64,000 nt of DNA. Source: a virus. The notes beneath the pieces are model-generated. The model was not told where the DNA came from, searched no databases, and worked only from the letters and a program-made list of their open reading frames with translations. The translations under genes were made by a program, and so were the position numbers. Shown here piece after piece: positions 3,721-63,795 of the stretch. Within the stretch, counting starts at the first letter, position 1. Every line of letters starts with the position of its first letter. The stretch lies in IMG/VR virus record IMGVR_UViG_3300030419_008158, positions 124,001-188,000 of that record. One strand, written 5' to 3'.

Positions 3721-3797
3721 ATCACACCAATTTTTTTAAAGCTTGTTGCTTATATTAGTGTGATGAAGACACTAGTAAATTCGAATTGAATAATTAT
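3721..3797 (-). promoter_or_regulatory. Intergenic leader with 10-bp inverted repeat
   Basis: The gap between the nuclease stop and the GTG of the glycosyltransferase. Arms ATCACACCAA (3721-3730) and TTAGTGTGAT (3755-3764) pair at 9 of 10 positions around a 24-base AT-rich loop, ending right at the start codon. No U-tract follows on either strand, so it is not a classic terminator. It could be an operator or a leader hairpin hiding the ribosome-binding site of the downstream glycosyltransferase. A T4 TATAAATA late promoter is not present. Confidence 0.35.
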
Positions 3798-5563: not shown

Positions 5564-5578
5564 TTGACACCTTCGAAA

Positions 5579-8084: not shown

Positions 8085-8095
8085 TTTTTCTCACC

Positions 8096-9849: not shown

Positions 9850-9850
9850 T

Positions 9851-11428: not shown

Positions 11429-11454
11429 AAATTACACCTATCGTGAGATAAACC

Positions 11455-13774: not shown

Positions 13775-14211
13775 GTGTCCTCCTTGTGAACATATTTTAG
13801 TCCATCCTCAACAATATGTGAATCTCCATCGTCATCTTTTGTGGAGACTTCAATAATAACACAGTCAACAGGCGCAATTCTCATATGCATTAGACCAGGC
13901 TCAATATGAAAAACGTCACCCTGTTTTAACATTACAGATTTATTTTGTGCTCTACCGATTCGAACGCCTACCTTAAGTTGGCCACTCTCAATATAGTACA
14001 TTTCTTTCTTTTTAATGTGAAACTCCATGCTGCTCTGGGAGCCGGCTTTCATAAAAATTCTTTTGACAGAATGCACATCATCTTCAAATATTGTTGTCAT
14101 ATGACCCCAGTACTTTTCGATATGCTTTACCGGTGAAGTAGCTTGAGGCAAATCTTGTCGACCATATTTGATGTCAGTTCCCGTCTTGTCCATACCTTCT
14201 CCCTTTGCCAT
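13771..14211 (-). CDS. Cupin protein, phosphomannose-isomerase type II-like
   Basis: 146 residues forming a single cupin. VKHIEKYWGHMTTIF is the 'E.PWG' edge of type-II mannose-6-P isomerase/GMP cupins; KAGSQSSMEFHIKKKEMYYIESGQ is cupin motif 1 (His and Glu ligands) and GDVFHIEPGLMHMRIA is motif 2. The GMP nucleotidyltransferase domain is absent. It could isomerise mannose-6-P to fructose-6-P or another sugar phosphate. The start shown overlaps araD by 38 bases with AGGA four bases upstream; a second in-frame ATG five codons downstream is also possible. It overlaps the transaldolase start (ATGA). Confidence 0.75.
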   Translation of the reverse strand: MAKGEGMDKTGTDIKYGRQDLPQATSPVKHIEKYWGHMTTIFEDDVHSVKRIFMKAGSQSSMEFHIKKKEMYYIESGQLKVGVRIGRAQNKSVMLKQGDVFHIEPGLMHMRIAPVDCVIIEVSTKDDDGDSHIVEDGLKYVHKEDT

Positions 14212-14857
14212 GCTTCCTGTCCCAGTGAAAACTAGAAATAGTCGAAGATATCTTCATTCTTCCACCCAAAGATTCTGTAATATATGCCATTTTAGCTATC
14301 TCCTCTAAAGCAATGGCAACATCGACAGCATTTTCTTTTTCTGACCACGTGAAGGGTCCATGACTGCTTAGAAGAATTGCACCGCTATCTTTAGAAGTTA
14401 AGTTTTTTGCAATATAAACTCCCAACTCTTTCTCATGCTGGTCTCCTGCTTCATAAATTGAAATAGGAGAATTTATGACCCTAACTGTGTCAACAAACAT
14501 GTCTGCATGGGTTGTTCCATACATTTGTATGTCTCTATTGGCTTGTGCAAAAGATGTCGCATATGTAGAATGATTATGGCAAATTGAACTTATGTGTGTC
14601 ATTGCTCTGTAAATCTCGACATGTATTGGTGTGTCAATAGAACACTTAAGACCCGATAGTTGATTGTAGCTCATATCAATAACTGCTATATCGCTTTCGC
14701 TCATTTTTTCAACATCTACACCACTGGGCTTTATATACACCAAAGAATTTTCTCTGTCTATGCAGCTATAATTTCCCCATGTTAGCTTTGCTAAATTTTC
14801 ACTTTTTATTTTTCTATTTTCTCTCAAACAAAGGGCAAGAAAATTCTTACTTGACAT
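14174..14857 (-). CDS. araD: L-ribulose-5-phosphate 4-epimerase (class II aldolase family)
   Basis: 227 residues. The run TWGNYSCIDRENSLVYIKPSG, SIDTPIHVEIYRA, SICHNHSTYATSFAQANRDI and YGTTHADMF follows AraD almost position by position. Zinc ligands are His94, His96 and His166 (LSSHGPF). AraD-type enzymes interconvert L-ribulose-5-P and D-xylulose-5-P by retro-aldol chemistry; UlaF/SgbE-like relatives do the same. It overlaps the PfkB kinase by 11 bases. Together with transaldolase, RpiB, kinase and nucleotidyltransferase it forms a pentose-phosphate-derived sugar module. Confidence 0.85.
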   Translation of the reverse strand: MSSKNFLALCLRENRKIKSENLAKLTWGNYSCIDRENSLVYIKPSGVDVEKMSESDIAVIDMSYNQLSGLKCSIDTPIHVEIYRAMTHISSICHNHSTYATSFAQANRDIQMYGTTHADMFVDTVRVINSPISIYEAGDQHEKELGVYIAKNLTSKDSGAILLSSHGPFTWSEKENAVDVAIALEEIAKMAYITESLGGRMKISSTISSFHWDRKHGKGRRYGQDGN

Positions 14858-15668
14858 TTTCAGCCCTCCTTAGATAATTGTAAGCTGTGGTGTCTCCGAA
14901 CACGATAGCGTCATGCAAGTTTTTTCCATTGTATGTTGCACAAAAACCTGCAAAAAAGGCATCTCCTGCTCCGTGATAATCGCTAACGTCATCTATCGCC
15001 CTTGGTTTGTGAACAATTTTTTTATTTTCAGAACATGCAATAATTTCATCTTTGCCATCCGTTGCAACACACACATCAAACATATTTTGTCTCAGTATGT
15101 GCTCAATATCTTTTTTTGGTACTTCGTTCTCATTGCCAACAAAACAGTGAAACCCAAGATATTTTTTAATACTTTCGCTGGAATCGCTTACTTGCATTTG
15201 ACATATTGTTTTATTCTTGGGTAATATTTTCAATATTTGATCACTAACAACACCCAATCGATAATCAGAAACCACTATCAAATCATATGTGGGCATCTTT
15301 CTATGCGATGTCCAAACAGTAGTTGGTTCTATGGGCATACAGTCATTTATTTGCAAGTATTTGTAAGAAGCATCTTTTACAAGATAGAACCTTTCTTTGA
15401 TTTGATCTCTTTTTCCAGAGCAAATTACATTAATTCCTGGATTTGTTTCCAAAATCTTGCGATGTTCATCTGAAACTGAGGTTACAAAGTCTACATCGCA
15501 ACCTAGTTGCGACATTTTTATTGCTACATTTGCGGCGCCGCCGAGAGATTGATATTCTCTAATTTTTTGACATTTTATCGTAGGTGTTTCTAGACTAAAA
15601 CCCGTAGGTTGTAGATACACATACTTGTCTATGATTGTGTCACCTATCAGAAGGACTAATTTTTTCAT
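14847..15668 (-). CDS. PfkB-family sugar kinase, RfaE/HldE domain I-like
   Basis: 273 residues. N-terminal LLIGDTIIDKYVYLQPTGFS and ETPTIKCQKIREYQSLGGAANVAIKMSQLG follow the heptose-7-phosphate kinase domain of HldE ('GD...D.Y..G...R.SPEAPVPV....E...GGAANVA'). The C-terminal DVSDYHGAGDAFFAG holds the PfkB anion hole and catalytic Asp (GAGD). In bacteria the HldE kinase and nucleotidyltransferase are usually fused; here the kinase stands alone and the transferase is on the adjacent gene. Substrate could be a heptose or pentose phosphate. The start overlaps the fusion gene by 29 bases. Confidence 0.8.
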   Translation of the reverse strand: MKKLVLLIGDTIIDKYVYLQPTGFSLETPTIKCQKIREYQSLGGAANVAIKMSQLGCDVDFVTSVSDEHRKILETNPGINVICSGKRDQIKERFYLVKDASYKYLQINDCMPIEPTTVWTSHRKMPTYDLIVVSDYRLGVVSDQILKILPKNKTICQMQVSDSSESIKKYLGFHCFVGNENEVPKKDIEHILRQNMFDVCVATDGKDEIIACSENKKIVHKPRAIDDVSDYHGAGDAFFAGFCATYNGKNLHDAIVFGDTTAYNYLRRAENVK

Positions 15669-16521
15669 GTGTTCTTAGCTCTCGTATTCTTCTGAGTTGG
15701 TCTGTTGTAGAAAAACCAGATGTTAGTGGCAGTGTCATGATCTTTACTTGATCTGGAATTTTGTCTCTTTTTCTAACTTCTTCTGCAGTCCACTCCCCTC
15801 CTTTTACAACAATTTCTGGCACTAGGCTTTCAATAATATTTCGTAGCTCTTCCTCTGTGTTAAAAACTATTACTTCATCGACATTTTTCATCGACAGCAG
15901 TATTTCTCTTCTAAAGCTTTGATTATTAATAGGTCTGTCTGGGCCCTTCAAGTGTTTTACTCTATCATCAGAGTCTATTGCAATTATAAGTTTTCCACCA
16001 CAACTCTTGGCGAAATTTAGCAAGTCCAAATGACCCTTGTGAAGCACATCAAATACACCGTTTGCAATTACTAAACCAGGAACAGGATCTATTTTTGCTA
16101 TTCGCTTATTGTGACGACCTTCTCCGTACGGAGTTTTTAGCCATGTTTTGACAATATCGATATTTTTTTTCTCACTATTAATCCAAGCTCCCAAGCAAAG
16201 GACATTTGAATCATTATGCTCCCTAGTTTTTTCTGATGTTGTTAGATTGTGGACTAAAGATGCTCTGGCTCCTGTAATTCTATTAGCAACAATAGACATT
16301 CCTACTCCAGTACCACAAATCAATATTCCTTTATTGTTCGGATTGTCTGAGACGATTTGTGCTACTTGGTATGCATAATCTACATAGTCAACTTTTCCAT
16401 GCTCATCATATGGTCCCAAGTCTATCGGAAGAAATCCTAGGGATTTCAAATTTTCAACGACACGCTTTTTTAGCTTTACACCGTTGTGATCAGATGCTAT
16501 TACAACTGTTTTTTCGCTCAT
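15640..16521 (-). CDS. RpiB/LacAB isomerase fused to RfaE-type nucleotidyltransferase
   Basis: 293 residues in two domains. Residues 1-143 are ribose-5-phosphate isomerase B: IASDHNGVKLK (phosphate loop), ICGTGVGMSIVANR with catalytic Cys69, and GARASLVHNLTTSEKTREHNDSN. Residues 149-293 are the cytidylyltransferase-like domain of HldE: NGVFDVLHKGHLDLL (HxGH at 161-164), AIDSDDRVKHLKGPDRPIN and VPEIVVKGGEWTAEEVR. This places sugar-phosphate isomerisation and NDP activation on one polypeptide. I do not recall this fusion as a common arrangement. The neighbouring kinase completes an isomerase-kinase-nucleotidyltransferase series similar in logic to GmhA-HldE. Confidence 0.85.
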   Translation of the reverse strand: MSEKTVVIASDHNGVKLKKRVVENLKSLGFLPIDLGPYDEHGKVDYVDYAYQVAQIVSDNPNNKGILICGTGVGMSIVANRITGARASLVHNLTTSEKTREHNDSNVLCLGAWINSEKKNIDIVKTWLKTPYGEGRHNKRIAKIDPVPGLVIANGVFDVLHKGHLDLLNFAKSCGGKLIIAIDSDDRVKHLKGPDRPINNQSFRREILLSMKNVDEVIVFNTEEELRNIIESLVPEIVVKGGEWTAEEVRKRDKIPDQVKIMTLPLTSGFSTTDQLRRIRELRTHEKISPSDR

Positions 16522-17289
16522 CTAAAACCTCGGAAGTGTAACATTGATTGGAAGATTGACACACTGAATTCCATGCCGGGCCAAATTTATTGCCAAAGCC
16601 ATCTCATTACAAATTGGGTGAGAATTTGGAGTTTTTTCAATGTCTGAATAGATCTTCTTGTAAGATAAGAATGTAGTACCATAAATCATCATATTTTCAA
16701 AACTTGAAAAATTTAACCAATCTGAAATGTGTCCATATTTTTTGGACATGTCGATTGCGTACATGTAGCTTTGATCAAATTGAGACATAATCAGGGGTGT
16801 CATTACATTAATGTCAAATCGACACCTTATCACGGCGTCATACTCCTGACCTGTTTTGAGACAGTGATGATACATCATTTGTGTCGACTCGTAAATAGAT
16901 GACCACATGCTAAGATTATTTGAAAGAATAAACTTTTCGTAGTCTCTATGTGTCATTCCTGCTTCTTCAGCTTCTTTTTCTGTTCCCGGAGAATAAACAT
17001 CAAATGTTCTTTTCAAAGACACACTTGGCATTAGAAATTTTCTAGTGGGTTCAACTTTACTGGCTAAGGGTGCATAGAGTTGTATAGCTTTTTCGTGAGA
17101 ATTAGAATCTATTCTCTTTTTCTTCCACCCACCATCTCCTCCGTATTTATAAGGCTCATTTTCATCTTCATAAGACCAGGCATGTAAAAATATATCTGGA
17201 TTGTTCGGTTCAATAATGTTTTTTAGAATGCTTTCGTAGCACTCATCAAGAAATCTAGGTTGGCCGGACATGCACAATGCAACTTTCAC
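16522..17289 (-). CDS. Putative polysaccharide-biosynthesis transferase, unknown family
   Basis: 255 residues. MKVALCMSGQPRFLDECYESI and NPDIFLHAWSYED form a recognisable N-terminus seen in capsule and LPS loci ('SGQ.R......S....I......DIF.HTW'), and EYDAVIRCRFDINV sits where a GT-A enzyme keeps its acidic donor site (RxRxD). I do not know the reaction. It begins four bases inside the upstream epimerase (ATGA) and abuts the RpiB fusion, so it is in the same transcript. Confidence 0.55.
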   Translation of the reverse strand: MKVALCMSGQPRFLDECYESILKNIIEPNNPDIFLHAWSYEDENEPYKYGGDGGWKKKRIDSNSHEKAIQLYAPLASKVEPTRKFLMPSVSLKRTFDVYSPGTEKEAEEAGMTHRDYEKFILSNNLSMWSSIYESTQMMYHHCLKTGQEYDAVIRCRFDINVMTPLIMSQFDQSYMYAIDMSKKYGHISDWLNFSSFENMMIYGTTFLSYKKIYSDIEKTPNSHPICNEMALAINLARHGIQCVNLPINVTLPRF

Positions 17290-18305
17290 TTTGTCTCCTT
17301 TGAGTCTATCTGTGATTTTGCATATTCCACGACTGCTTCAACACCCTTGACAAGACCAACTTTTGTCTTCCAACCTAAAATATTTTCTACCTTTTTAGAA
17401 GACCCTAAGCTAAATTTGTTCACCTCAGAAACTACTCTTTCTTGCGGAAGAGGTAGAGGGCCACTAAATAGTTCTGGGTATTTGTCCCAAAACTTTTCTG
17501 CACTTTCAAAAGATGGCTCAATATAAGTTCCGAAACTTTCACAAAATATTTTGTATATTTCTTTTACAGAATATGCCGTGCCGGACGAAACATTGAAGAT
17601 TTCTCCCGGAACATCACTTCGCTTTAAACACATTTCTACCAAATCAACCAGATCGCTTATATAGACATAGTCTCTCTTTTGATCTCCGCTGGAGAAGAAT
17701 GTGGGCTTTTCACCCTGAAGGAGGCATTTTGTAATGTATCCCATTAGTGGGGGATGTTTTCTTCTAAAATCTTGATGTGGTCCGTAAACATTAAAGAATC
17801 TAAGGGTAATAACATCCATTTTGTATGTGGAAGCATATGCTTTACACAGTGATTCACACTGTAATTTACTGACTGCGTAAACGAGGTCAGGATTGGACTC
17901 GAGTCTATCTTCCACAAAGGGAGTAATTTTACAATTTTCATAAATTGCACTAGTGCTGGCAAAAATAAACTTCTTAATTCCCTTTTTTCTGCATGCTTCT
18001 AGCATATTGGCAGTTCCAGTAACGTTATTATCGATTGTCTTGCTAGGGTTTAGCTGACAATCTGGCAAAGGGGCAATTCCCGCCATGTGTATTACAGCAT
18101 CAACTCCCTCTAAGTGCTGTCCTATGTCTTTGTCTCTAACGTCTGCATGTATAAACTCACCTACTTTTTTACCGTCGACTGTGAGATTATCTTCATGGCC
18201 ATAGCTCATATTATCTAAAAGGACAACGTAGTGTCCGTTTTCTTCAAGATGATGTCCTATTTGTGAACCAATAAATCCGGCTCCACCTGTTATAAGAATT
18301 TTCAC
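17286..18305 (-). CDS. NAD-dependent nucleotide-sugar epimerase (GalE-like)
   Basis: 339 residues. MKILITGGAGFIGSQIGHHL is the NAD loop, VIHMAGIAP the second Rossmann signature, ASTSAIYEN plus DLVYAVSKLQCE the Ser/YxxxK catalytic triad, and LRFFNVYGPHQDF and KRDYVYISDLVDLV the C-terminal UDP-sugar region. A UDP-glucose or UDP-GlcNAc 4-epimerase is most likely, and would supply UDP-Gal or UDP-GalNAc, the donor class used by the GT6 enzyme at 21947-22672 (inference). It is coupled to both neighbours by four-base overlaps. Confidence 0.83.
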   Translation of the reverse strand: MKILITGGAGFIGSQIGHHLEENGHYVVLLDNMSYGHEDNLTVDGKKVGEFIHADVRDKDIGQHLEGVDAVIHMAGIAPLPDCQLNPSKTIDNNVTGTANMLEACRKKGIKKFIFASTSAIYENCKITPFVEDRLESNPDLVYAVSKLQCESLCKAYASTYKMDVITLRFFNVYGPHQDFRRKHPPLMGYITKCLLQGEKPTFFSSGDQKRDYVYISDLVDLVEMCLKRSDVPGEIFNVSSGTAYSVKEIYKIFCESFGTYIEPSFESAEKFWDKYPELFSGPLPLPQERVVSEVNKFSLGSSKKVENILGWKTKVGLVKGVEAVVEYAKSQIDSKETK

Positions 18306-19375
18306 GTAATGTATTCTCCTAGAAGTTCATTTCTTTTTATTGATATTGATTGACAGGATGGGTGTGGGTTTGTTGGAGCAAAATCATTTATAATAATTCG
18401 TCTGCTGTGATTGCATCCTGAGATTATTTGTTTGTATTGAATATCATTATCTTTTAGTAATTGCCTAAACTCTAGAAGAAATTCTTCTGTTCTAGCTGTC
18501 ATAAAAATTATCTCATTCCCTTCCTTCGACAGCCTTTTGACAGTGTCAATATTTTCTTGAATGGGTTCAAAATAGTTTGACCAGTTATTTTTACCAAATC
18601 TTCCACTATTTTTCAAAAGAACACCATCAATATCAAAGATGTATGTTTTGTAACGCCCTAGTTCTTCATACCAATCTTCTTTAGTGCCCCAGTCTATAAA
18701 TTCATCTGCCTCGACATATTCAAAAATAGCCTCTTCACATACTATTAGATAAGAAATTACATGACTAACATATACTTCACTTAGATTTTTGTAGACTTCA
18801 TGATCTCGTATTTTTTCATACGCTCGACAAAATTCATTGGCATCCGATGAATATACACCCAAACAAATAATGTTAGAAACCATCTCTTTTTCGATGATGT
18901 CTGTTATAATGTCGTCGTCATTTTTAATGATAAAGCTTTTTTGCTGCACTCTATCAATATTTGATTTAGCAGATACACTCAAACCAACGATATGATTTGA
19001 GCTACTAGGAAGCTTTGAACGAACAAGACAGTCGGTATCTTTTATAGTTATTTTTCCTGTCACAGAAAGCTGCTTTAAAGTCTCGTATACAGTCTCAGAT
19101 GCAGAGGATGTCGGATTTTTTAGAGATAGAACTTCTACTTTTTTTCCAAAAACCTGATTTAGAATCGTATCAGCATCATACTTTTCACAATGATCATTTA
19201 GGACTGTGACTATAATTCTGTCAAATGAATTTGGATTCTCTTCAAGAAAAGACGAAATCACCTTGTCAATCATAAGTCGGCCATCTGGGTGTGTCAAAAG
19301 CCACTTGGGTCTCATGCCGGGATATCTACTTGATTTTCCAGCTGCTGGTACTATTAATGTTGATTTATTTTTCAA
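18302..19375 (-). CDS. Sugar-phosphate nucleotidyltransferase fused to HAD phosphatase
   Basis: 357 residues. Residues 1-225 are an NTP-transferase: TLIVPAAGKSSRYPGMRPKWL contains the G-x-G-x-R...PK nucleotide-binding signature, and the middle (IITDIIEKEMVSNIICLGVY) is a typical substrate-side segment. Residues about 240-357 are a HAD domain: TYIFDIDGVLLKNSGRFG (nucleophile DxD), IIFMTARTEEFL, then a motif-IV-like IINDFAP. Pairing of these two activities with the APH-like kinase upstream (19365-20162) is seen in capsule clusters. The product sugar or polyol is unknown. Confidence 0.75.
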   Translation of the reverse strand: MKNKSTLIVPAAGKSSRYPGMRPKWLLTHPDGRLMIDKVISSFLEENPNSFDRIIVTVLNDHCEKYDADTILNQVFGKKVEVLSLKNPTSSASETVYETLKQLSVTGKITIKDTDCLVRSKLPSSSNHIVGLSVSAKSNIDRVQQKSFIIKNDDDIITDIIEKEMVSNIICLGVYSSDANEFCRAYEKIRDHEVYKNLSEVYVSHVISYLIVCEEAIFEYVEADEFIDWGTKEDWYEELGRYKTYIFDIDGVLLKNSGRFGKNNWSNYFEPIQENIDTVKRLSKEGNEIIFMTARTEEFLLEFRQLLKDNDIQYKQIISGCNHSRRIIINDFAPTNPHPSCQSISIKRNELLGEYIT

Positions 19376-20162
19376 AATGATTTTCCATATGAGCTAATCT
19401 TTCTTCTAGAATCTTTAAAGTATGTGTATCTGCGTATGGGATTATTCTTATGATATTCATAACCAAAAGTCTTTTGACTGCTTCCATTTCGTCATTATTT
19501 AGTCTTTCACACATTTTATTATAGAGAAACATGCACTTTATTACAGGCGGAGATGTGCTATTTCTCCACGACCACATCGATATGATGTCTTGAAAAACTT
19601 TGGCGCAGTCAATGTATTTTGTCTCAGCAAATGAATCTAAAAAATCGATAAGATAGACATCAGAGTTGTAGATAATAATATTTTCAAATGTTAGGTCGCC
19701 ATGACACATCGATGATGTCATTTTTGTCCAATCATAGTCTAAACAATATTGAAAGTATTTTTCAAATTTTGAAGAGACATGACTTCTGAGGTCATCTACT
19801 TTTTTCTCAACTAACGATGCTAGATTACTTTTATCTTCTTTGCGAAATAAAAAATTAGTAATTTTTTCAAAAATATGAAGAATATCATTTGAACTACTAG
19901 AGGAAACATAGTTGCTAAATGTACAGCCACTTATGTACTCCATGTCGAAATAAAACATGTTGTCATGTGTGCCAAAGTTATATATTTTTGGCGTTTTTAG
20001 GACAGAATCTCTAAAAAGAAGCTGTTTTTTCATTTGACTTTTTAGTCGATTGTTGTATTCAATACTAGGTGATATTTTTCTTACAAACTTTCTTTCTAAT
20101 TCTTTGTCAATATGAAGCTCAACTTTGCAACCTGAGTGTCCTTTGAGTTTCTTTACAAACAT
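19365..20162 (-). CDS. APH/choline-kinase-like phosphotransferase
   Basis: 265 residues. Protein-kinase-like small-molecule kinase: MEYISGCTFSNYVS in the hinge, SSMCHGDLTFENIII as the catalytic loop (H-G-D-x-x-x-x-N) and VYLIDFLDSF as the Mg-binding D-F-x-D. The N-lobe is short with basic lysines. Family members phosphorylate aminoglycosides, choline or sugars. It overlaps the nucleotidyltransferase-HAD fusion by 11 bases, so a kinase plus NTP-transferase pair for an unusual glycan substituent is suggested (compare LicA/LicC for phosphocholine). Antibiotic resistance is unlikely in this context. Confidence 0.72.
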   Translation of the reverse strand: MFVKKLKGHSGCKVELHIDKELERKFVRKISPSIEYNNRLKSQMKKQLLFRDSVLKTPKIYNFGTHDNMFYFDMEYISGCTFSNYVSSSSSNDILHIFEKITNFLFRKEDKSNLASLVEKKVDDLRSHVSSKFEKYFQYCLDYDWTKMTSSMCHGDLTFENIIIYNSDVYLIDFLDSFAETKYIDCAKVFQDIISMWSWRNSTSPPVIKCMFLYNKMCERLNNDEMEAVKRLLVMNIIRIIPYADTHTLKILEERLAHMENHFEK

Positions 20163-20187
20163 GTTTTTCTATCAATTCTCACCCTCG

Positions 20188-20994
20188 CTAGCGAAATATT
20201 TGATACATTATTTCAAAATTTCTATGCTGGTGTGCATTACACTGAAGAACTAGAAATGAGGTTGGTATTTTCTTTGCTAAATACCCAATAGCTAGCTGTT
20301 CATTATTCATTCTTCCAGCGCCAATCATCAAGTTTTGTAAAACATCATCACACCATGCTCTAAGAGCAATGCTTCCGAATTTATCTACTCCGAAAAGGCC
20401 GCCCCACATAAAAGATCTATTGTCCCAAAAATAGTCTTCTGTCATATCTCCGTTGATAAGATCCGGATAGGGCGAAACATACATCTGATATAGTATTTTT
20501 GCTGTATGTTCTTTTATTTGATTTTCAAAAGTTGGTCCCGGTAAGGGTTGAGTAAAATCAATGTCAGGCGCGTGTCGAGAAATACCGGCGTCCATCCAGA
20601 AAAAATAGTCGCTATTAAAGTGATTCTCTAATGCAGCTCTTTCGACCCAAGCAAATTTAGAATATTGAATTATGGAGTAAAGACTAGTCTTGCATTCTAT
20701 CCTACCTGGATCTTTAATCCTGTCCTGGTATTCCTCGCTGGATAGAACTGCATCAATTTTTTCTTTCAAATGATAACACGGAACTTCATCAAGTTTTTGA
20801 TTGATTATTTTTGTTTCTCTACCAGGAGGTCTGTTTTCTTCAATAAACGAATTCAAACTCTCATCACAGTAGATAACCATCGGGGCACCCATTTTAAGAG
20901 TGTCCGCAAACCACTCATAATACTGCTCCATTCCGCGGCCGTCGACATCTTTTCTTCCAATATCAAATAAAGCTGTTACCACTGTTGCTTTCAT
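20188..20994 (-). CDS. HtrL/YibB family protein (glycan-locus, putative glycosyltransferase)
   Basis: 268 residues. MKATVVTALFDIGR, the EQYYEWFADTLKM segment, PMVIYCDE, YSKFAWVERAALENHFNSDYFFWMDAG and AWCDDVLQ match the HtrL/YibB (WlaTC) family found in LPS and capsule loci. The WMDAG stretch may be the DxD-like donor site of a GT-A fold. E. coli YibB lies in the LPS-core region; the biochemical role remains unclear to my knowledge. It overlaps the next gene by four bases. Confidence 0.75.
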   Translation of the reverse strand: MKATVVTALFDIGRKDVDGRGMEQYYEWFADTLKMGAPMVIYCDESLNSFIEENRPPGRETKIINQKLDEVPCYHLKEKIDAVLSSEEYQDRIKDPGRIECKTSLYSIIQYSKFAWVERAALENHFNSDYFFWMDAGISRHAPDIDFTQPLPGPTFENQIKEHTAKILYQMYVSPYPDLINGDMTEDYFWDNRSFMWGGLFGVDKFGSIALRAWCDDVLQNLMIGAGRMNNEQLAIGYLAKKIPTSFLVLQCNAHQHRNFEIMYQIFR

Positions 20995-21950
20995 GTGTTC
21001 TCCTTGTCACATACTTTCTTTACATTCTTTAGATAAATTTGACTAACTATATTTTTCCAATCAAAAGTCTCTGCGTATCTTCTTATTTCGCTTCTCATCT
21101 CAATAGAAACTTCTCTATTTTTTGATATCACACTTTTCACATAGTCAGCATCATCAATTTTGCTTTCCGGTATTATATCAATAAAGGGAAGATCAGCATC
21201 TAAATTGGCTGCTGAAAACTCCGATATAACCAACCCTAGACCGGCTGACATGGCTTCCAAGCAAACTAGTGGGTGTGCTTCTCCGTCGCTGAGCAGTACT
21301 AAGTTAGCAAAATTAGTAAGACCATCGTAAAGTTCATTTTTTGTCCACTCGCCCAAATATCTATCAGATGATGTATCAAACTGTGGCTCGATACAGTTAC
21401 CAACAAAGTAAAGATTTTCTATATCTTGAAACTTTATTTGCCTTTTTCGAAAGTCAATCTTTGCCAGATAAATAGAATCATTGGGGCGCAAACATGTCGG
21501 TTCGTATCTAAAAAGATCAGTTCTTACTCCGTTGGGAACTACATAAAGTCTGTCTTCTGGAATTCCTGATTTTTTATAAATTTCTTTTATTCCCGGTGAG
21601 AGACAAAATACATTCCAGTTACTGTTGACAAATGCCCAAAAGACGTTTCTATAGCCGGCGTCCCACCGGTGTGTCTGTTCTAGATAGCCATAGTGACTAG
21701 TCACAACAACATTTTTCTTTCTTATGTGGGGAGCCAGATGTGCCCATTCATCATACTGAAAGTGGATAAAATCAGCATCTGATGCATTTACTAGTTCGAC
21801 TATTAGACTGTGATCTTTTGTGTTTATAATTTCCACTTCGTGACACATGGAAATTAGTGTCTTTCTGTAGTCATCAATTAATATCTCTACTGCGCCCCAA
21901 CCCTTTGGAGGTATTGGCATTTCCCCGGGACCTACTATACAAAATTTCAT
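20991..21950 (-). CDS. Glycosyltransferase, GT4 family
   Basis: 319 residues. N-terminal MKFCIVGPGEMPIPPKGWGAVEILIDDY is a typical GT4 start with the G-W-G-A-V/E-x acceptor loop. YVVPNGVRTDLF and LLSDGEAHPLVCLEAMSAGLGLVISE (E-x(7)-E-like) mark the donor domain. It is shorter than usual for GT4 (about 370) because the linker is compact. Part of the coupled string from 26016 to 20188. Confidence 0.8.
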   Translation of the reverse strand: MKFCIVGPGEMPIPPKGWGAVEILIDDYRKTLISMCHEVEIINTKDHSLIVELVNASDADFIHFQYDEWAHLAPHIRKKNVVVTSHYGYLEQTHRWDAGYRNVFWAFVNSNWNVFCLSPGIKEIYKKSGIPEDRLYVVPNGVRTDLFRYEPTCLRPNDSIYLAKIDFRKRQIKFQDIENLYFVGNCIEPQFDTSSDRYLGEWTKNELYDGLTNFANLVLLSDGEAHPLVCLEAMSAGLGLVISEFSAANLDADLPFIDIIPESKIDDADYVKSVISKNREVSIEMRSEIRRYAETFDWKNIVSQIYLKNVKKVCDKENT

Positions 21951-22672
21951 TTTACACCTGCGAATCTAGGGAATTCACTCATGTCTTTATGAAGATGAAC
22001 AAACTTAGTTGGATAGTTTTCTCTAATATTATTATAGCCATTTTGAGGCTGGGCATAGCCCGGATGAAGTGTTCTCACTAGACTGCTATTTTCTAAAAAG
22101 TATTTGTTTGTGTGTGATTCATCATGCCAAACTGCCACGATTTCGTCTTCTAAATCTTCATCCACTCTTCGCTCCAAAACACTTATCATTTCTAAAAACT
22201 CTAATGTCTTTCCGCCCCAAAAACACCCTTGCCTGTATTGAGATAGATCATATTGATCATCGTATATATTAGCTCGAGATCTAGTGTCGGTTTCGAACGC
22301 TCCAATTTTCCCCAAAAAACCTGGATGTTGCACACCAATCAAAGGCTCATTTCCAAAAAGATCGTCTGGGTCTACCTTCCCAACACACCACATGTCTGCG
22401 TCGACAAAAAAAGAATAATCAAATTTAGAAATTTGTTTTCTCATCTGATTCATGTACTTAAATCGATAGAGGGTAATATAAGGCCAACCCTGGTGATCTA
22501 TTTTCATGCACGTAACGTTTTCTTTATTGAATAATTCATAGTCAATATCGTCTGTGTACACAAAATAATGTTTCTCGATGCCTGGTAGAAAGTTCTTCTG
22601 TAGGCCTTCATAATAGCCCTCAAAAAAGCCTTTATATCTGCCAGTTCCGATAAAATTAATTGCTACTTTCAT
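21947..22672 (-). CDS. GT6 family alpha-1,3-Gal/GalNAc transferase (ABO-type)
   Basis: Start placed at the ATG inside the GT11 stop (ATGA overlap); 241 residues starting MKVAINFIGTGRYKGFFEGY. GT6 hallmarks: KHYFVYTDD, GWPYITLYRFKYM, FFVDADMWCV with a true DxD (DAD 91-93), and WHDESHTNKYFL (183-194), the 'HDESH.N.Y' acceptor/donor motif of ABO transferases. GT6 enzymes add Gal or GalNAc in alpha-1,3 linkage, commonly to fucosylated galactose (H antigen). GT6 genes in cyanophage P-SSM2 and in some bacteria are known. DxD, as in vertebrate and P-SSM2 enzymes, differs from the NxN of most bacterial ones (from memory). Confidence 0.88.
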   Translation of the reverse strand: MKVAINFIGTGRYKGFFEGYYEGLQKNFLPGIEKHYFVYTDDIDYELFNKENVTCMKIDHQGWPYITLYRFKYMNQMRKQISKFDYSFFVDADMWCVGKVDPDDLFGNEPLIGVQHPGFLGKIGAFETDTRSRANIYDDQYDLSQYRQGCFWGGKTLEFLEMISVLERRVDEDLEDEIVAVWHDESHTNKYFLENSSLVRTLHPGYAQPQNGYNNIRENYPTKFVHLHKDMSEFPRFAGVK

Positions 22673-23436
22673 ATTGTCACCCAATTGCTTCTGTAAATAG
22701 AAGACCAATCTGAGGGTCCTTCACTAGAAAACCATTTTTTTGGAGCTATGACTCCACTAGAATTGCTAAGCCATGCACCCCACCAGCTAAACGAAGAATT
22801 CGCAATAATATGCGAGGTACACATGGACATCATGCACATTTCTGTTGCATCGTCACCATCCTCAGCAAAATAAAATCTATCGTCGCTAAAAATATTCTTA
22901 CACCACTCTATGTCGTCACTAAAAACCAGAAAAATACAGTCAGGAATATTTTGAATTACTATGTTGATCGCTTCTTGATAGTAGTCAGTGCCTAGATTTG
23001 TATGATATCCCGACAAGCTAAGATAATCACCTCTTCTGACATGTAGAGAGCAAATATTTTTTCCCTCAAATGGTGTCATTAGGTTTTTAGCGTTTTCTTG
23101 TATTTTTTTGTGAAATGTGAACTCTTTTCTAAGTGATTTTTCACAGTGATTAAAATATCCTGGTGATTGAAAATAGCCGTGTATGTCAGTTTTGTCAGGT
23201 GCCATAAAAATATTAGGAGAGAATAAAAAATTTGGCTCTTCATACCGGTACTTAGGCGCATAATTTTCCGGAATTATTTCGGCATTAGTCATAGAAAACA
23301 CGCTAAAAAGCTGATGGTTATTTTTAGGAATTGCTATTTTTTGTCCTCTCAAGAATCCTACGGAAAACAATGTTGCGTATTGAAACATTTGATTTCCTAG
23401 TCTTCCATTTTTTCCTAGCTCACTATAAGTTATCAT
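22669..23436 (-). CDS. GT11 family alpha-1,2-fucosyltransferase
   Basis: Start at the ATG two bases after the upstream stop, with GGAG ten bases upstream; 255 residues starting MITYSELGKNGRLGNQMFQYA. The first motif is the GT11 N-terminus (GRLGNQ(M/L)FQ). LHVRRGDYLSLSGYH (131-145) is the GDP-fucose-binding HxRRGDY. IIANSSFSWWGAWLS is the conserved C-terminal motif. It transfers L-fucose from GDP-fucose in alpha-1,2 linkage, usually to galactose. The donor is made by gmd and fcl in the same island and the product is the normal acceptor of the adjacent GT6 enzyme. Confidence 0.9.
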   Translation of the reverse strand: MITYSELGKNGRLGNQMFQYATLFSVGFLRGQKIAIPKNNHQLFSVFSMTNAEIIPENYAPKYRYEEPNFLFSPNIFMAPDKTDIHGYFQSPGYFNHCEKSLRKEFTFHKKIQENAKNLMTPFEGKNICSLHVRRGDYLSLSGYHTNLGTDYYQEAINIVIQNIPDCIFLVFSDDIEWCKNIFSDDRFYFAEDGDDATEMCMMSMCTSHIIANSSFSWWGAWLSNSSGVIAPKKWFSSEGPSDWSSIYRSNWVTI

Positions 23437-23437
23437 T

Positions 23438-24124
23438 TTATCCCACTCCGTAAAAGGATCTAAAGACACTACTTAGAAATGCTGGTGCTTTATGGTTATA
23501 GTTGGGATTATCCTTGTATGTGTAATCTAGCAAGATCTCGTCAACAATTCCAAATTTATACCACTGCATAGCTCTAAGCCACAAACTATAATCTTCTGCC
23601 ATCCAAAATGTATCATCGTATCCGCCCAGCTTTTCCATAATCTTTTTTCTAAAAACGACACCTGGGTGTGGTATGACATTCCACCCTCTAAGAAGAGCTG
23701 CTTTTATATCCATGTCTTTGGTGGGGCGAAGTGGTTCTTGCTTTGTAGGTAAAAAATTTTCATCTACCAATCTGATTTGTGTACTACAAATGTCGATATC
23801 AGAATTTTCAGACAAATATTTTATCTGCTTTTCTAGCTTTTCAGGGTACCATAAATCATCTGCATCTTGTCGACCGATGAGATCAAATTTAGAAACTGAT
23901 AGGCCCTTATTAAGGGCCGGAACTAATCCGGGCGAAGAATGTTCCACCACAACTCTATTATCCTTCGAAGCAAAATCTAAAAGTATTTTTTCAGTTTTGT
24001 CAGAACTATCATTAACAACACAAATTAGCTCAAAATTCGAATATGTTTGTGATAAAACTGACTTTACTGCTCTCTCAAGAGTCTTTTCAGCATTTCTTGC
24101 CGGAAGAATAATAGATATTTTCAA
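23438..24124 (-). CDS. Glycosyltransferase, GT2 family
   Basis: 228 residues. ISIILPARNAEKTLERAVKSVLSQTYSNFELICVVNDSSDKT is the GT2 nucleotide-binding start; LNKGLSVSKFDLIGRQDADDLWYPEKL contains the DxD (DAD) metal site. GYDDTFWMAEDYSLWLRAM is the catalytic-base ED region. Typical GT-A inverting enzyme, short form. Coupled to the bifunctional gene upstream (ATGA). Confidence 0.87.
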   Translation of the reverse strand: MKISIILPARNAEKTLERAVKSVLSQTYSNFELICVVNDSSDKTEKILLDFASKDNRVVVEHSSPGLVPALNKGLSVSKFDLIGRQDADDLWYPEKLEKQIKYLSENSDIDICSTQIRLVDENFLPTKQEPLRPTKDMDIKAALLRGWNVIPHPGVVFRKKIMEKLGGYDDTFWMAEDYSLWLRAMQWYKFGIVDEILLDYTYKDNPNYNHKAPAFLSSVFRSFYGVG

Positions 24125-26016
24125 AACTCGATCCGTATACTGGGGGTGGGATTTTTCCAGTCTACCTTAGAATGAAATACATGCCCTCCGGTTTCCTTTG
24201 AAAGCTTTTTAGCCAATGTCTCTATTTCATCGTCTGTCACTTCTGACCACGGTTTATCAAAGAACTTGTTATTTTCTGACGTGTCTTCATGTGTTATGTT
24301 ATACAAGCTTTCCCAATGTCTTTGCCAAAAATTTTTGTAAGTCTTGATTTTTCTAGAAATGTCCATCCAGGAAAAATGTTCTACTGCTGGCAGAAGATTT
24401 ACGCAGTTTTGAAGCCATTGCTCGTATGCTTTCAGTGCTTCATTGTTTCCGTTTAAAGCCTGGTGTCTGGCAATATGTGCCGGTTCATTGTAAAAATTAG
24501 CATGCGGAATTATTTCGAACGTCTCAGCATGCACATAATCACACCCATCTGTCCCTTGTGACGCATAAAGATCTCCATTTTCATCCTGCATTCTCATTTG
24601 CTTTGGAATTCCATGGGTAATGTGAGGTAGATTTTTACTAAGCCGCCACTTCCATGGATTTACGTCGACTCTAACTTTATTTTTAGATCCCCAGTATTCT
24701 ACTACAGGAAATGAAACTAAGTCCACAGTTTGTGGCCATGATCGACAAAAAGATCTAACTTTTTCTAAAGTACCTTCCGGTACAACTTCATCAGCATCCA
24801 TTTGCCAGCAATATTCCATCGTACATCTTTTTCTAGACTCAGCTTTTTGTGCCCCATCGAAGACTGCAGACCTTGGGTGATCCCAATCTCTTTCAACTAA
24901 AAAGACTTTGAGCTTATCTTCCTTTTCTGACCACTCCAAAAGCTTTTCCCACGTCCCATCAGATGAACCACCGTCGACGACAACAACCTCGTCACAAAAA
25001 TTTATCATCGAGCTAATACACTCTTCAAAAGGATATTTTTGCTCAACACAGTTTAGTGTAGTTGTATAGCCTGAAATTGTCGGCTGATAGTTAGCATTTT
25101 TCATCTCTTGACGCCAAAATAAATCTCTACTGCCGTATAAATACTCTTCTATTTCCTGGATATTCTCAGTTACAAACCACTCCTCGTCTTTGTGCTGAAC
25201 GTATTCATTGAGTTCTAATTTGCACCCTAGAAGCTTGGCCTCTATTACCATTCTAGGACATGTATCATTGCCCATGGGAAGATATACAAATCCTTCTGCA
25301 GTTGAAAGTTTTTCTAATAGATCTGCATACGGAAGGCCCCAAACTACTTCATATTCTAAGTTGTTTTGTTTGCACCATGCTTCTGCTTGTTCAGCTCCTT
25401 TTATCCATGAGTTAGATCCTAAAACTATCCATCCTTTTCTTTTCTTAGATTTAGAGTCTACTCTTAGCTTCTTTACAGTCACAAAAAACTCATCATTAAA
25501 GACTGAACTTAGAACTGTATTATTCTTGTCTTGTAAGAATGGAAATTTTTCGAAATATACGCTTTGTTGCTTTTCACCCATCCAATAGAGTGTTTTGGCA
25601 CCGTAATAGAAAGCAGAAATCATTTTTCCATGCTGTGATTGATCACAGTCGCACTCTGAACCTTCTGCAAATAGGTGTTTTTCTGCAGATCTATACTTAC
25701 AGTACTTATAATCATACTCTAGAACTGAATAGCTTATATTGGCAACAATTGTAGGAATCAATTCTGGGTTCATTCCGGAAAAGTTTCCAAATATCCAATG
25801 TTTACCATGACCTTGCTCTAAAAGTTCAACAGAAACCCTTTTAGAGTGTACTTTCTGATATTTTACTGGGCACTTCTCGATAAGCGCTTCAGTAGTAAGC
25901 TCAGCTCCGCCCACATAATCATCTACGAACATGTCTGAGACGAATATTATTTCTGCATCTTCTTCTAGCGAGAATGTGTCTACATTTTTAGCTGAGAAAG
26001 GACTGTTTAAGTTCAT
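24121..26016 (-). CDS. Two-domain glycosyltransferase (GT-B-like N-domain, GT2 C-domain)
   Basis: 631 residues. Residues 1-310 resemble a GT-B donor half: EIIFVSDMFVDDYVGGAELTTEAL at the start and VYLPMGNDTCPRMVIEAKLLGC at about 252-273, the GT4 'P.E..P..V.EA...G' region. Residues about 320-631 are GT2: TTTLNCVEQKYPFEECISSMINFCDEVVVVDGGSSDGT, then CWQMDADEVVPEG (DAD metal site). It is the first gene of the glycan string after the fibre genes. AGAGGTG lies seven bases before the ATG. Two different transfers by one polypeptide are plausible; order and donors are unknown. Confidence 0.75.
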   Translation of the reverse strand: MNLNSPFSAKNVDTFSLEEDAEIIFVSDMFVDDYVGGAELTTEALIEKCPVKYQKVHSKRVSVELLEQGHGKHWIFGNFSGMNPELIPTIVANISYSVLEYDYKYCKYRSAEKHLFAEGSECDCDQSQHGKMISAFYYGAKTLYWMGEKQQSVYFEKFPFLQDKNNTVLSSVFNDEFFVTVKKLRVDSKSKKRKGWIVLGSNSWIKGAEQAEAWCKQNNLEYEVVWGLPYADLLEKLSTAEGFVYLPMGNDTCPRMVIEAKLLGCKLELNEYVQHKDEEWFVTENIQEIEEYLYGSRDLFWRQEMKNANYQPTISGYTTTLNCVEQKYPFEECISSMINFCDEVVVVDGGSSDGTWEKLLEWSEKEDKLKVFLVERDWDHPRSAVFDGAQKAESRKRCTMEYCWQMDADEVVPEGTLEKVRSFCRSWPQTVDLVSFPVVEYWGSKNKVRVDVNPWKWRLSKNLPHITHGIPKQMRMQDENGDLYASQGTDGCDYVHAETFEIIPHANFYNEPAHIARHQALNGNNEALKAYEQWLQNCVNLLPAVEHFSWMDISRKIKTYKNFWQRHWESLYNITHEDTSENNKFFDKPWSEVTDDEIETLAKKLSKETGGHVFHSKVDWKNPTPSIRIEF

Positions 26017-26237: not shown

Positions 26238-27683
26238 CTATGAAACTACTTGATAACCTTTCATTGGATCAAAATCGATTAGGACATCGCCCGATGATGA
26301 ATCTATGGAAAGAGCATATCCAACAACTCTTACGTACTCGCCGGCGCTTGAGGGGGCTGCTGCATCAAATTGTCCTGCGGTACCTTCTGATACATAGACA
26401 GCTGAGCCTGTCACAAATGTTCCATTGAATTGACCAGAAGGAATTCTATAATACCCCTTGGTGAAAACACCATAGTATTGAGAAGGTCCGCCCAATCCAA
26501 TGCCTAATTTTGCTGTTGCACCGGTTGATACTGATGAAGCATCTGCCAGATTCCACGTGCCGTCTGTGTGCAAGTAGTATAATGCACCTGCAGTAAGCAT
26601 CTCATTAGCACCCGGGGAGAAAACAAGAAAGTCTCCTCTTCCCCACCCACTTTGGAACTGTCCGGTAAATGAATAATTCTGAATATCAAGCCAGTCTTCT
26701 TCCCCTCCAAACTTTTTAAAGCCCCCAGACACAATTAAATCGCCCTGGGAGACTGCGGCTCCATAAGACCCGGGCTGGCCGTTGGATCCTGCTGTTCCGG
26801 AAATGAAAAGAACAACATCAGTCCCCACACCGGTTACACGCCCACCACCTATAATGTTTTGAGTTGATCTGAGATGAAGAGAATCGACTTCAGAGTGATG
26901 ATTGTACCCACCATACAAATTTCCTGATACAACTAGATCACCACCGAATATTGAAACTCCTTCGTTATTTTTACCACCTTCTGATCCGGACACAAAGAAG
27001 TTAGTATCGGACGGTGCTTCGTCGGAGAGGACTAAAACTTGACCCTCGTTGCTGCTTTCAACCATCGTGAGCATATCAACTCCGCCGGCCTGGAAGTTAA
27101 TTTTGTCTGCAGCAGGAAAATCCATGAAAGTATTGCTATCACCCAGATGCTGCAACCTCTTTGAGATGGCAATATCAGATGTATGACCTCCATCAATCCC
27201 TACAACAAAAGTTCCAGCGCCCATTGAGCTTACGCCATTTGGTCCGAATCCAAAACGACCATCAGCCCGAGCTCTAAATAGTACATCACCGTCACCATCT
27301 TCCATCTCTAGAATGTGGGTACCAGATCCGTTGCCATCTGCTAATAGCTTTAAAACATGGCCTGAATCGCTTTGATCGTTATGTAATTTGGCAGCGAAAC
27401 CCTCATGAACATTTGCCTTAGATTCTAGTGCACCTGTTAAAATAAGAGTTGTACCATTATATGTAAGATTAGATTCTACAGAAGCCTCGTCTGAGTCTTT
27501 ATAGGTCAGCACCCCGTTAGATGTTGATCCGTCAAAAGATATTCCGCCCCCACCACCAGATGCAGCTATAGTAACATTATCTCCGGAGCCACTAGATATT
27601 GTAATGTTAGATCCGGCGATTAAAAATGATGATCCATCAGAAAGTTTTGTATGTGAACCTGAAACTGGCCCTATTAACGGCAT
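26238..27683 (-). CDS. Virion fibre-like repetitive protein
   Basis: 481 residues, rich in Gly, Ser, Asp. It begins with the module GSHTKLSDGSSFLIAGSNIT shared with the two larger fibre proteins, includes two copies of the 'FGG-D-L-V-x-S-G-x-L' repeat, and ends in a beta-rich region (GEYVRVVGYALSIDSSSGDVLIDFDP), a frequent C-terminal piece of phage surface proteins. No enzymatic motif. Likely a tail- or head-fibre subunit in the virion surface; assigned by repeat sharing and position. GGGAGGG is the ribosome-binding site; the gap to the 1085-residue fibre is only 14 bases. Confidence 0.75.
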   Translation of the reverse strand: MPLIGPVSGSHTKLSDGSSFLIAGSNITISSGSGDNVTIAASGGGGGISFDGSTSNGVLTYKDSDEASVESNLTYNGTTLILTGALESKANVHEGFAAKLHNDQSDSGHVLKLLADGNGSGTHILEMEDGDGDVLFRARADGRFGFGPNGVSSMGAGTFVVGIDGGHTSDIAISKRLQHLGDSNTFMDFPAADKINFQAGGVDMLTMVESSNEGQVLVLSDEAPSDTNFFVSGSEGGKNNEGVSIFGGDLVVSGNLYGGYNHHSEVDSLHLRSTQNIIGGGRVTGVGTDVVLFISGTAGSNGQPGSYGAAVSQGDLIVSGGFKKFGGEEDWLDIQNYSFTGQFQSGWGRGDFLVFSPGANEMLTAGALYYLHTDGTWNLADASSVSTGATAKLGIGLGGPSQYYGVFTKGYYRIPSGQFNGTFVTGSAVYVSEGTAGQFDAAAPSSAGEYVRVVGYALSIDSSSGDVLIDFDPMKGYQVVS

Positions 27684-27697
27684 TTAGCCCTCCCAGA

Positions 27698-30600
27698 TTA
27701 GTCGGTGATTTCTTCCATAAGAAGTCTGAAAAGTTTTCCGTTGTTGTTATTTCTAAGAGTGAGATAATTCTCTTCCTCTATGACTGTCCAGTTTCCTCTA
27801 TCATTCTGTAAGTGGAGGTCACCGGTGTATATGTTTGCCCATCTGTTAGTTGCACTGCCTAGATTTAGAGAGTTGTCTACACCCGGTAAAAGGTTACCGG
27901 AAGTAATCAAGCGCCCACCGAAAACGGAAACTCCTGAAGAACCGGTTTTAGATCCTGAAACGAACATGCTAGTATCTGATCCAGGGCCACCGTATTGGCC
28001 TCCCAGCATAACTGTACTGGATCCAAGTACTGTTAGATCGGCTCTAAGGTTAAGCATAGATCCACCCGTGGGTGAAGTATAACCACCTCTAACAGTACCT
28101 GACATAACAACATCACTGTCGAAAATAGCTCGAGCTTTTTCTCCTTCCTCTTGATATCCAAATTGCATCCCTCCGTAGAGAGGAGTTCGAACTCCTGAAA
28201 CGAAAAGTATTGCATCACTTACTGGATTAGTATTGGCAATTGAATCCGGAGATGCCATAACCAAGGGCGAACCGGCCATGTGAAGTTCGGATCCACCGGT
28301 GTATCCTTGGCTCCATCCTCCCAACAAAGAACCTGATATTACTACGTCTCCACCAAAGAGAGCTGCTCCGTGAGATTCTCCGTTATGCTTTGAATCGACA
28401 GATCCCGAAACGTAAAAATAGACGTCTTCCGGATTTGTAACATTTCCCACCGCAACATTTCGATCGGAATCAACACCAATAACAGTGGTTCCGTCCTCTT
28501 GAATCTGAACGCCTGTTTGACCATCCAGTTTTAGAGGTCCTCCAGAAGTTGTCACTGTAGAAGAAGCTGTACCAGCAATATTAAAGGCACCAGATGTAGC
28601 ATCAATGTCCAGAGTTTCTCCTGCAAGTGTCAGTGCGCCTGAAGATGTAGAAAGATTAGTGGCACCTGCACCATCAATAGAAATAGTGCTTTCAGAATCT
28701 ATGGCAATTGAACCGTGTGCATCTATGTCGATGGCATCATCAGAATTGATATCTAAATCTCCGGTACCTGCTGTGATTGTGATACCACCGGCAGCATGCG
28801 AAGATGTTAGAAGAAGAACACCAGCACCGGTCTTTCCTGCGTTAATGATAACGCCGCCAGCAGTTGAAGTTAGCTTGAGAGAGTCATTACCCGTTCCGTC
28901 ATTATTAATGACCTCAAGATCTCCATCAGATTCAGACCAGATGTAGTTTCCAGCGTCTCTAAAGAACAACTTAGCATCACCTGTACTGGCTCCGACTGTA
29001 GAATCTCCTGTAGAGTCATTAAAGGTGAGGTCAGCCGCGGCTCCGAAGGATCCACCGTTATTATATTGATATTGTGTATCTGATCCCGCAACTGATCCGC
29101 CCCCGCCAGAAGCAGAAATTGTAACAGCACCCGAAGAACCGGTTGTGATTGTTATGTTAGACCCAGCGATAAATGCTGAAGTACCGTCAGTCAACTTTGT
29201 ATGTGACCCAGACATTTTAGTTGCAAAAACCTGTCCCGTGTATAAGACACCCGAAACAAATGTATCACCTCTAAACGTCGCGACACCGGAGCCTGTATAT
29301 TTTCCACCAATAGACCCGGAAACAGCAAAATATTCATCGCTAGCTAGAGTAACCCCACCAATAGCAACCTCTCTATCATTAGTGACTGCTATGACTGTGG
29401 TTCCGTCTTCCTGGATGTTTACTCCAACTTGTCCATCTAAGTTTAGTGCACCGCCAGAAGTTGTCACTGTGGAGGCAGATGTGCCTGCGATGTTGAATGC
29501 CCCGGAAGTGGCATCAATATCCAGAGATTCTCCTGCCAGAGTTAGAGCCCCAGAAGATGTCTGAAGATCTGTCGCGCCGCCACCTTGAATAGAAACTGTC
29601 GAAGCACCATCAATTGTTAATGCACCTGAAGCGTCGATATCGAGAGTAGAAGCATCAACATCAATAGCAACATCAGATGTTGTACCGATATTGATACCGC
29701 CGGCTCCATGAACAGTAAGAGCACCGGCTGAAGTTGACAAGTTTGAAGCCGCACCGGCATCTATAGAGATACCCGCTTCTGAATCGATTGTCATAGCACC
29801 TACTGAATCGATATCTAATGTGTTACCGAACTGTAAGTTACCAGCTGCTGAACCTGATATAGTGAGAGCACCAGATGTTGTAGTAAGGTTTGTGGCACCT
29901 GCCGCGTCAATAGAAACAGTTGAAGAACCATCGATGGTAATAGCACCAGAAGCATCGATATCGAGAGCTGCTGAATTAAGATCAACAGTCTCACCGGTTC
30001 CGTCTAGAGTAAGTGTACCGCCCAATGATTTTATAGTAACAGTACTGTCAGCTGCTTCACCAATAGTAATGGTACGCGTACCGTCAGTACCGATGTTGAT
30101 AGCTTGGTCTACGTCATCATTACCAATATTAATGGCGGCCGCGGATGAGTTGAGTGAAATAGCACCCGAACCGTCAATGTCCACTGTTGTTGCATTAGCA
30201 ACTGCGACCGCTCTTGCATCTGAAATGGTAATAACTGAAGTTCCATTCTCTTGAATATTTACGCCTGTTTGACCGTCTAGACTTAGTGCACCACCAGAAG
30301 TTGTTACTGTGGAGGCAGATGTACCAGCAATATTAAAGGCACCACCCGTTGCGTCGACATCTAGGGATTCTCCAGCAAGAGTTAGTGCACCAGCACTAGT
30401 CGTAAAATTAGATGCTGCACCTGCATCGATTGATATCGCACCTACAGCATCAACAGTCACAGCATCGTCAGAATTAATGTCTACATCACCCGTACCTGCG
30501 GCTACCTTGACACCACCATCAGCATGTGAAGCAGACAAAAGAAGCACACCAGCGCCTGATTTTCCTGCTTTAATGATCACCCCACCCGCTGTTGAGGTGA

Positions 30601-30955: not shown

Positions 30956-30970
30956 TTTATCTCTCCAATG

Positions 30971-44797: not shown

Positions 44798-44850
44798 ATT
44801 ACAAATCTCCAGCGCCATGGCATCTTATAAAACATAGGAAGACGATAAAA

Positions 44851-59967: not shown

Positions 59968-59968
59968 T

Positions 59969-60565: not shown

Positions 60566-60581
60566 TTTAGAATCTCCATTC

Positions 60582-60920: not shown

Positions 60921-60924
60921 ATGA

Positions 60925-61412: not shown

Positions 61413-61414
61413 TG

Positions 61415-62140: not shown

Positions 62141-62143
62141 TAT

Positions 62144-62344: not shown

Positions 62345-62357
62345 GGTTTATCCTCTT

Positions 62358-62966: not shown

Positions 62967-62981
62967 GTTGTTTTTTCCTTC

Positions 62982-63784: not shown

Positions 63785-63795
63785 TCTGTATCCTT

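Follow-up and report, generated by a model that had tools for sequence, protein, structure and literature searches.

A 64,000-nucleotide (nt) stretch of the viral record IMGVR_UViG_3300030419_008158 (positions 124,001 to 188,000; hereafter the window) carries, side by side in a large glycan cluster, genes for a fucosyltransferase of glycosyltransferase family 11 (GT11) and an ABO-type enzyme of family 6 (GT6). Viral GT6 genes depend on a nearby GT11 gene, and the dependence runs one way. Together with bacterial genes in which the two enzymes are fused, it offers the strongest evidence that the product of GT11 is the substrate of GT6, and we consider it rather probable that the pair forms a two-step capping cassette within a larger phage glycan assembly line. 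If so, many phages possess the pair of enzymatic steps that underlies ABO-like glycans.

Dependence of viral GT6 genes on a neighbouring GT11 gene

The coordinates, families and motifs that an earlier note, made from the DNA letters, had given for the two genes (HVRRGDY in GT11, DAD and HDESHTNKYF in GT6) were confirmed, with Pfam scores above the family cut-offs (Table 1). PHROGs also placed each gene in a glycosyltransferase family (PHROG 3317 for GT6, 7e-70; PHROG 2644 for GT11). NCBIfam model NF041524 matched GT6 at 192.7 bits, under its cut-off of 250, and no NCBIfam match was obtained for GT11. The end of GT11 is joined to the start of GT6 by a 4-nt ATGA overlap, which the earlier note had read as translational coupling. 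The overlap itself is present. However, 18 of the 26 junctions in the cluster overlap, so this feature alone says little about the GT11–GT6 pair and we rejected it as evidence of a special coupling.

Evidence for a functional tie came from the distribution of the two families. A scan with a single sequence returned no GT6 relatives and an alignment-based scan was required. The viral set held 89 GT6 genes, namely that of the window, nine from phage records and 79 from IMG/VR loci. A GT11 gene lay on the same strand within 1.5 kb of 86 of them, and within 150 nt in 72 cases. In the three exceptions (L035, L037 and L088) the stored sequence ends at the GT6 gene. Clustering at 75% identity gave 35 clusters, all of which agreed on GT11 linkage. 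Among the IMG/VR loci, GT11 was directly adjacent in 64 of 76, compared to about 12.5 expected from random placement among the genes of each stretch (the gene count being approximate). The reverse test gave a different picture: GT6 was present in 16 of 80 viral loci found through GT11, and in 6 of the 24 long ones. The dependence on a nearby GT11 thus runs one way, which would be expected if GT6 acted on the GT11 product, as the earlier note had proposed, and it fits a fucose-containing acceptor.

Adjacency might instead reflect gene order inherited within a mobile glycan cassette, with GT6 acting on an unrelated acceptor. Most genes of the cluster do overlap, and the viral GT6 enzymes form one clade (99% in the Shimodaira–Hasegawa-like approximate likelihood ratio test, quick tree), so the linkage must be partly inherited and the events are not independent. 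However, GT11 stays close in spite of order flips (upstream of GT6 in 73 viral loci, downstream in 13), fusions and inserted genes, which argues that its closeness is maintained rather than just inherited. The association, fusions included, also extends to the distant bacterial clade that carries NXN at the metal site. Of 72 bacterial GT6 genes, 33 lie within 1.5 kb of a GT11 gene on the same strand, two of them being fused with it in one open reading frame (ORF; Table 1). Since the dependence is, in addition, one-way, we regard simple inheritance of gene order as improbable.

The two enzymes and their proposed product

In alignments, the residues of the GT11 HxRRxD motif (H132, R134, R135 and D137) are invariant; this motif is that of alpha-2 and alpha-6 fucosyltransferases (PMC4202792). 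The GT11 model had a pLDDT (predicted local distance difference test score) of 93.7, and its nearest folds in the PDB were NodZ, POFUT1 and FUT8 (E values of 3e-7 to 2e-6), pointing to a GT-B fucosyltransferase fold.

The AlphaFold model of GT6 (pLDDT 93.6) has a predicted GT-A fold. Its best PDB match, and closest solved structure, was BoGT6a of Bacteroides ovatus (template modelling (TM) score 0.85–0.86, 0.85 to entry 4ayj, at 28–29% identity), followed by the human blood-group A transferase GTA (TM 0.84). Donor-site and catalytic residues of BoGT6a (Y13, W66, T70, R73, W189-H190-D191-E192 and K231; residue roles from PMC3961637) are kept, with E185 and K229 of GT6 aligning to the catalytic glutamate E192 of the WHDE motif and to the diphosphate-contacting lysine K231. 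Of the two acceptor contacts compared, the histidine is conserved (H116) and the threonine is not clearly so (see below). The two enzymes differ at the metal site and around the donor. BoGT6a is a metal-independent NXN enzyme that uses N-acetylgalactosamine (GalNAc) as donor (PMC3961637). In the viral set NXN is replaced by DXD in 89 of 89 members, 88 of them reading DAD, and DXD is tied to metal dependence in the GT6 literature (PMC3961637). GT6 of the window is probably metal-dependent and retaining. Asn69, which contacts uracil in BoGT6a, is Ile in GT6 and Val in the ABO enzymes.

The donor-specificity triad also sets the viral enzymes apart. A and B specificity is separated by two of its positions, Leu266 and Gly268 in GTA (LGG) as against Met266 and Ala268 in the B transferase GTB (MGA) (PMC4202792), and our alignment gives AGG for BoGT6a. 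GT6 of the window has neither the A nor the B triad but QGC, as do all 89 viral GT6 enzymes and 5 of the 72 bacterial ones (including that of Omnitrophota contig L103). By alignment, the viral triad is unlike that of any GT6 of known specificity that was compared.

In the pathway we propose, the products of gmd and fcl would convert GDP-mannose to GDP-L-fucose. GT11 would then add fucose (Fuc), probably in alpha-1,2 linkage, to a galactose-type residue that an upstream transferase had put in place, and GT6 would attach a further sugar to this fucosylated residue. The product would be a branched fucose-containing cap, X-alpha-1,3-[Fuc-alpha-1,2]-Gal, in the layout of the A and B antigens. BoGT6a acts on 2'-fucosyl-lactose (PMC3961637), and the likeness of the GT6 model to this enzyme (TM 0.85) counts in favor of the scheme. 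So does the precedent of Escherichia coli O86, where the characterised enzymes WbwK (GT11) and WbnI (GT6) make a blood-group B structure (PMC4202792). The O86 genes, compared on the basis of the published account, differ in lying in a chromosomal O-antigen cluster and in their GT6 being of the bacterial NXN, not DXD, class (PMC4202792).

Several observations weigh against this scheme, beside the common descent of the viral GT6 enzymes. HhFT2, also a GT11 enzyme, forms an alpha-1,3 linkage (PMC4202792). The donor triad differs from those of GTA, GTB and BoGT6a, and the acceptor-contacting Thr134 of BoGT6a is replaced by Ala125 in a loop that aligns poorly, with Thr in 7 of the 88 other viral members; owing to these two differences the donor sugar cannot be read from the sequence. 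Finally, of 36 long viral loci only 11 were found to hold gmd together with fcl, and in many cases GDP-fucose must therefore have another source.

The earlier note had foreseen an A/B-like epitope. As a description of the layout this is acceptable. As an identity it is not established, given the QGC triad and two epimerases that are not assignable to GalE. A true A/B synthase pair, in which GT6 transfers galactose or GalNAc to yield a genuine blood-group A or B trisaccharide, would fit the GT6 fold and catalytic residues and the GT11 partner found with 86 of 89 viral GT6 genes. However, Q148-G149-C150 stands in place of the very residues that distinguish A from B, throughout the viral set and rarely in bacteria, and the cluster holds no confident GalE. 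We therefore consider this reading unlikely. Returning to the capping cassette, we suggest, tentatively, that the viral GT6 enzymes may constitute a subfamily of their own, marked by DXD at the metal site, QGC at the donor site and the tie to GT11. In cyanophages and other large phages it would build a branched, fucosylated cap whose added sugar is neither the one of A nor the one of B, and this cap would decorate virions or the host surface. If this holds, these would be DXD-type GT6 enzymes whose donor site is unexplored; the one-way dependence on GT11 and the QGC donor site are the two features most worth following.

Occurrence in cyanophages, other phages and bacteria

The cassette is real and well formed, and its phage falls outside the GT6 clade of the cyanophages: in a quick tree, the window GT6 branches with contigs L023–L029. 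The order GT2b-GT2-GT11-GT6-GT4c is common to the window and these seven contigs. The virus record that holds the window comprises 284,429 bases and contains, by family search, a single copy each of GT6 and GT11. The phage is large, T4-like and without a close cultured relative. Its T4-type terminase is 42% identical to that of Microcystis phage Mel-JY01, 40% to those of Flavobacterium phages and about 32% to those of cyanophages, and its PhoH and PrkA proteins share about 29–35% identity with those of known phages.

GT6 relatives turned up in 71 records of a phage collection and GT11 relatives in 102; almost all of these records were from cyanophages or marine phages. In IMG/VR, 327 stretches encoded a GT6 relative, of which the best 80 were retained. 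The pair occurs in at least eight deposited cyanophage genomes, in the same order and overlapping by 4 nt in Bellamy, B23, S-8S53, S-CAM9, S-PRM1 and SynMITS9220M01, and by 1 nt in DSL-LC02 and DSL-LC03. Coupling of the two genes is thus not new, and a cassette unique to the window phage was rejected. The DSL-LC02 cluster also has gmd and fcl, as well as relatives of GT4c, the HtrL_YibB-family protein and a GT1_2-like protein of the window. The earlier view that a coupled full pathway was not known in phages does not stand, nor does that of cyanophages carrying lone GT6 genes. P-SSM2, the supposed case and the one generally cited for a phage GT6, has GT11 in the same cluster, 1.5 kb and two genes upstream of GT6; two genes likewise separate GT11 from GT6 in ACG-2014f. 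The cyanophage cassettes share families, order and overlap with that of the window, with GT6 identities of 41–47% (tblastn). They differ in belonging to Kyanoviridae and, in several cases, in having psbA near the cassette, whereas no psbA was found in the 284,429-base record.

Earlier papers report GT6 from two cyanophages (PMC3961637), a NodZ-type fucosyltransferase from S-SRM01 (PMC8557907) and, from S-SCSM1, genes for GDP-fucose and for an alpha-1,2-fucosyltransferase (PMC9602691). No paper that brings the two families together in one phage was found in the open-access literature, to which the search was confined, and this absence is accordingly weak.

Two further GT6 loci deserve mention. 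The Omnitrophota contig L103 encodes a methyltransferase–GT6 fusion (284–2602) adjoining GT11, and its GT6 joins the viral clade, possibly through gene exchange between phages and bacteria. A misfiled virus was rejected for this contig, as its other ORFs resemble a sensor kinase and transporters and look bacterial by eye. A 635-kb uncultured phage record (L259) has a GT6 relative at 11992–12678 with GT11 about 11 kb away, and a PrkA relative too.

Sugar supply, neighbouring genes and target of the glycan

Table 1. Features of the GT11–GT6 cassette and its surroundings (window positions unless a contig is given)
Feature	Position	Strand	Support and remarks
GT6 (ABO-family) glycosyltransferase	21947..22672	-	241 amino acids from ATG; PF03414 67.4 bits (cut-off 25)
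DXD metal site of GT6, D91-A92-D93	22394..22402	-	alignments
Donor-specificity triad of GT6, Q148-G149-C150	22223..22231	-	corresponds to GTA 266-268; profile and MAFFT alignments
GT11 fucosyltransferase	22669..23436	-	255 amino acids from ATG; PF01531 124 bits (cut-off 23.9)
Glycan cluster	1310..26016	-	27 genes, one strand throughout
Epimerase 1 (short-chain dehydrogenase/reductase, SDR)	4622..5563	-	galE 98.9 bits; PDB 'UDP-glucose 4-epimerase related protein' 2e-34
gmd, GDP-mannose 4,6-dehydratase	5579..6562	-	TIGR01472 458 bits (equivalog cut-off 415)
fcl, GDP-L-fucose synthase	6547..7485	-	best family NF047922 245 bits (equivalog cut-off 500)
Epimerase 2 (SDR)	17286..18305	-	best NCBIfam galE 155.5 bits; best PDB match GalE-1 4e-42
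HtrL_YibB-family protein	20188..20994	-	PF09612 62.6 bits
GT4-type transferase (GT4c)	20991..21950	-	overlaps GT6; PF13439 42.7 bits
GT2 transferase	23438..24124	-	PF00535 104.9 bits; gene order kept in L023-L029
GT2b, protein with GT2 domain	24121..26016	-	631 amino acids; first cluster gene; PF00535 45.8 bits
Three long repetitive proteins	26238..38041	-	just upstream of cluster; fibre-like by eye; weak PHROG matches
GT6-GT11 fusion ORFs	L144:2008-3738, L152:1223-2803		contigs of bacterial metagenome-assembled genomes (Kuenenia, Magasanikbacteria)

Family scores and alignments place gmd and fcl in the cluster, in agreement with the earlier note, and the genes together resemble a single pathway. 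Although the best family score of fcl falls short of equivalog level, its product aligns to the human GDP-L-fucose synthase (7e-77), catalytic positions Ser/Cys, Tyr/Lys and His included, and the cluster thus encodes a predicted GDP-fucose pathway. The same note had looked to two epimerases for UDP-galactose and UDP-GalNAc. Both score well under the GalE cut-off of 262.3 bits, so that this supply is not established.

Among the transferases next to the pair, GT4c is a conserved partner of GT6: of 36 long viral GT6 loci, 32 hold a relative of it, and GT4–GT6 fusion ORFs occur in other phages (L050 and L083). The GT2 transferase adjoining GT11 is the natural candidate for the step that would precede GT11. 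GT2b has no relative in the phage collection and is 51–57% identical to its counterparts in L023–L029.

No match was found in the record, which is possibly a fragment, to the phosphoglycosyltransferase families PF02397 and PF00953, the flippase family PF01943 or the polymerase/ligase family PF04932, the four families tried. This lack of recognised initiation and export genes, within the four families, argues against a phage-made O-antigen, which we rejected. It favours an acceptor of cytosolic origin, most likely a virion protein or the host lipopolysaccharide (LPS) core.

The target could be the phage itself, with the cluster glycosylating its virion proteins in the cytosol, perhaps the fibre-like proteins encoded directly upstream, a suggestion that we make with reserve. 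Besides the four unmatched families, it draws on gene order, as the cluster comes after the three repetitive proteins, which share its strand, and repeats of a similar kind lie ahead of it in L025–L028. PHROGs, however, do not identify these proteins as fibres, and the cyanophage cassette lies between nucleotide-metabolism or tRNA genes and hli or psbA genes, with a fibre gene nearby only sometimes. The chlorovirus PBCV-1 offers, on the published account, a viral parallel, since its own GMD and GDP-fucose synthase feed a glycan that contains fucose (PMC4691112); it differs in being a eukaryotic virus with algal hosts.

Remodelling of the host surface, that is of the LPS core or another lipid-linked glycan on host carriers, may also be what the cluster is for, for example to block superinfection or alter grazing, and we hold this view just as provisionally. 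The LPS core is built in the cytosol, where phage export genes are not needed. Action on host LPS and cell wall is also the usual interpretation of cyanophage LPS gene clusters (PMC9602691). However, such a phage, lacking its own initiation and export genes, would rely wholly on host machinery. If the capping cassette is what we propose, it would provide a means of deciding if phage 'LPS' clusters target the host or the virion.

The repetitive proteins are separated from the cluster by a 221-nt AT-rich gap with a T-run (26017–26237, minus strand). A regulatory RNA preceding the cluster was rejected (no Rfam match, ordinary fold, z of -0.92). T4-type late promoters (TATAAATA) gave 2 matches against 3.3 expected, and sigma-70-like sites were at chance level.

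Elsewhere in the cluster, at 13112–16521 (minus strand), lie genes for a transaldolase, a cupin, an AraD-like protein, a PfkB kinase and an RpiB domain fused to an HldE-type nucleotidyltransferase, which look like a nucleotide-sugar sub-pathway, perhaps heptose-like. A NodU-type carbamoyltransferase is encoded at 9851–11428 (minus strand); a carbamoyl transferase is annotated near GT11 of S-SCSM1 too. Outside the cluster, genes for PrkA, SpoVR and DUF444/YeaH are grouped at 42866–47321 (minus strand), resembling a bacterial stress operon. Phage matches to PrkA came from Thermus phages, Enterobacter phage LAU1 and uncultured phages of about 600 kb, at 29–35% identity. Finally, several different proteins encoded at 58564–63811 (minus strand) have in common an N-terminus or internal stretch resembling MKITKRQLRRIIKEE.

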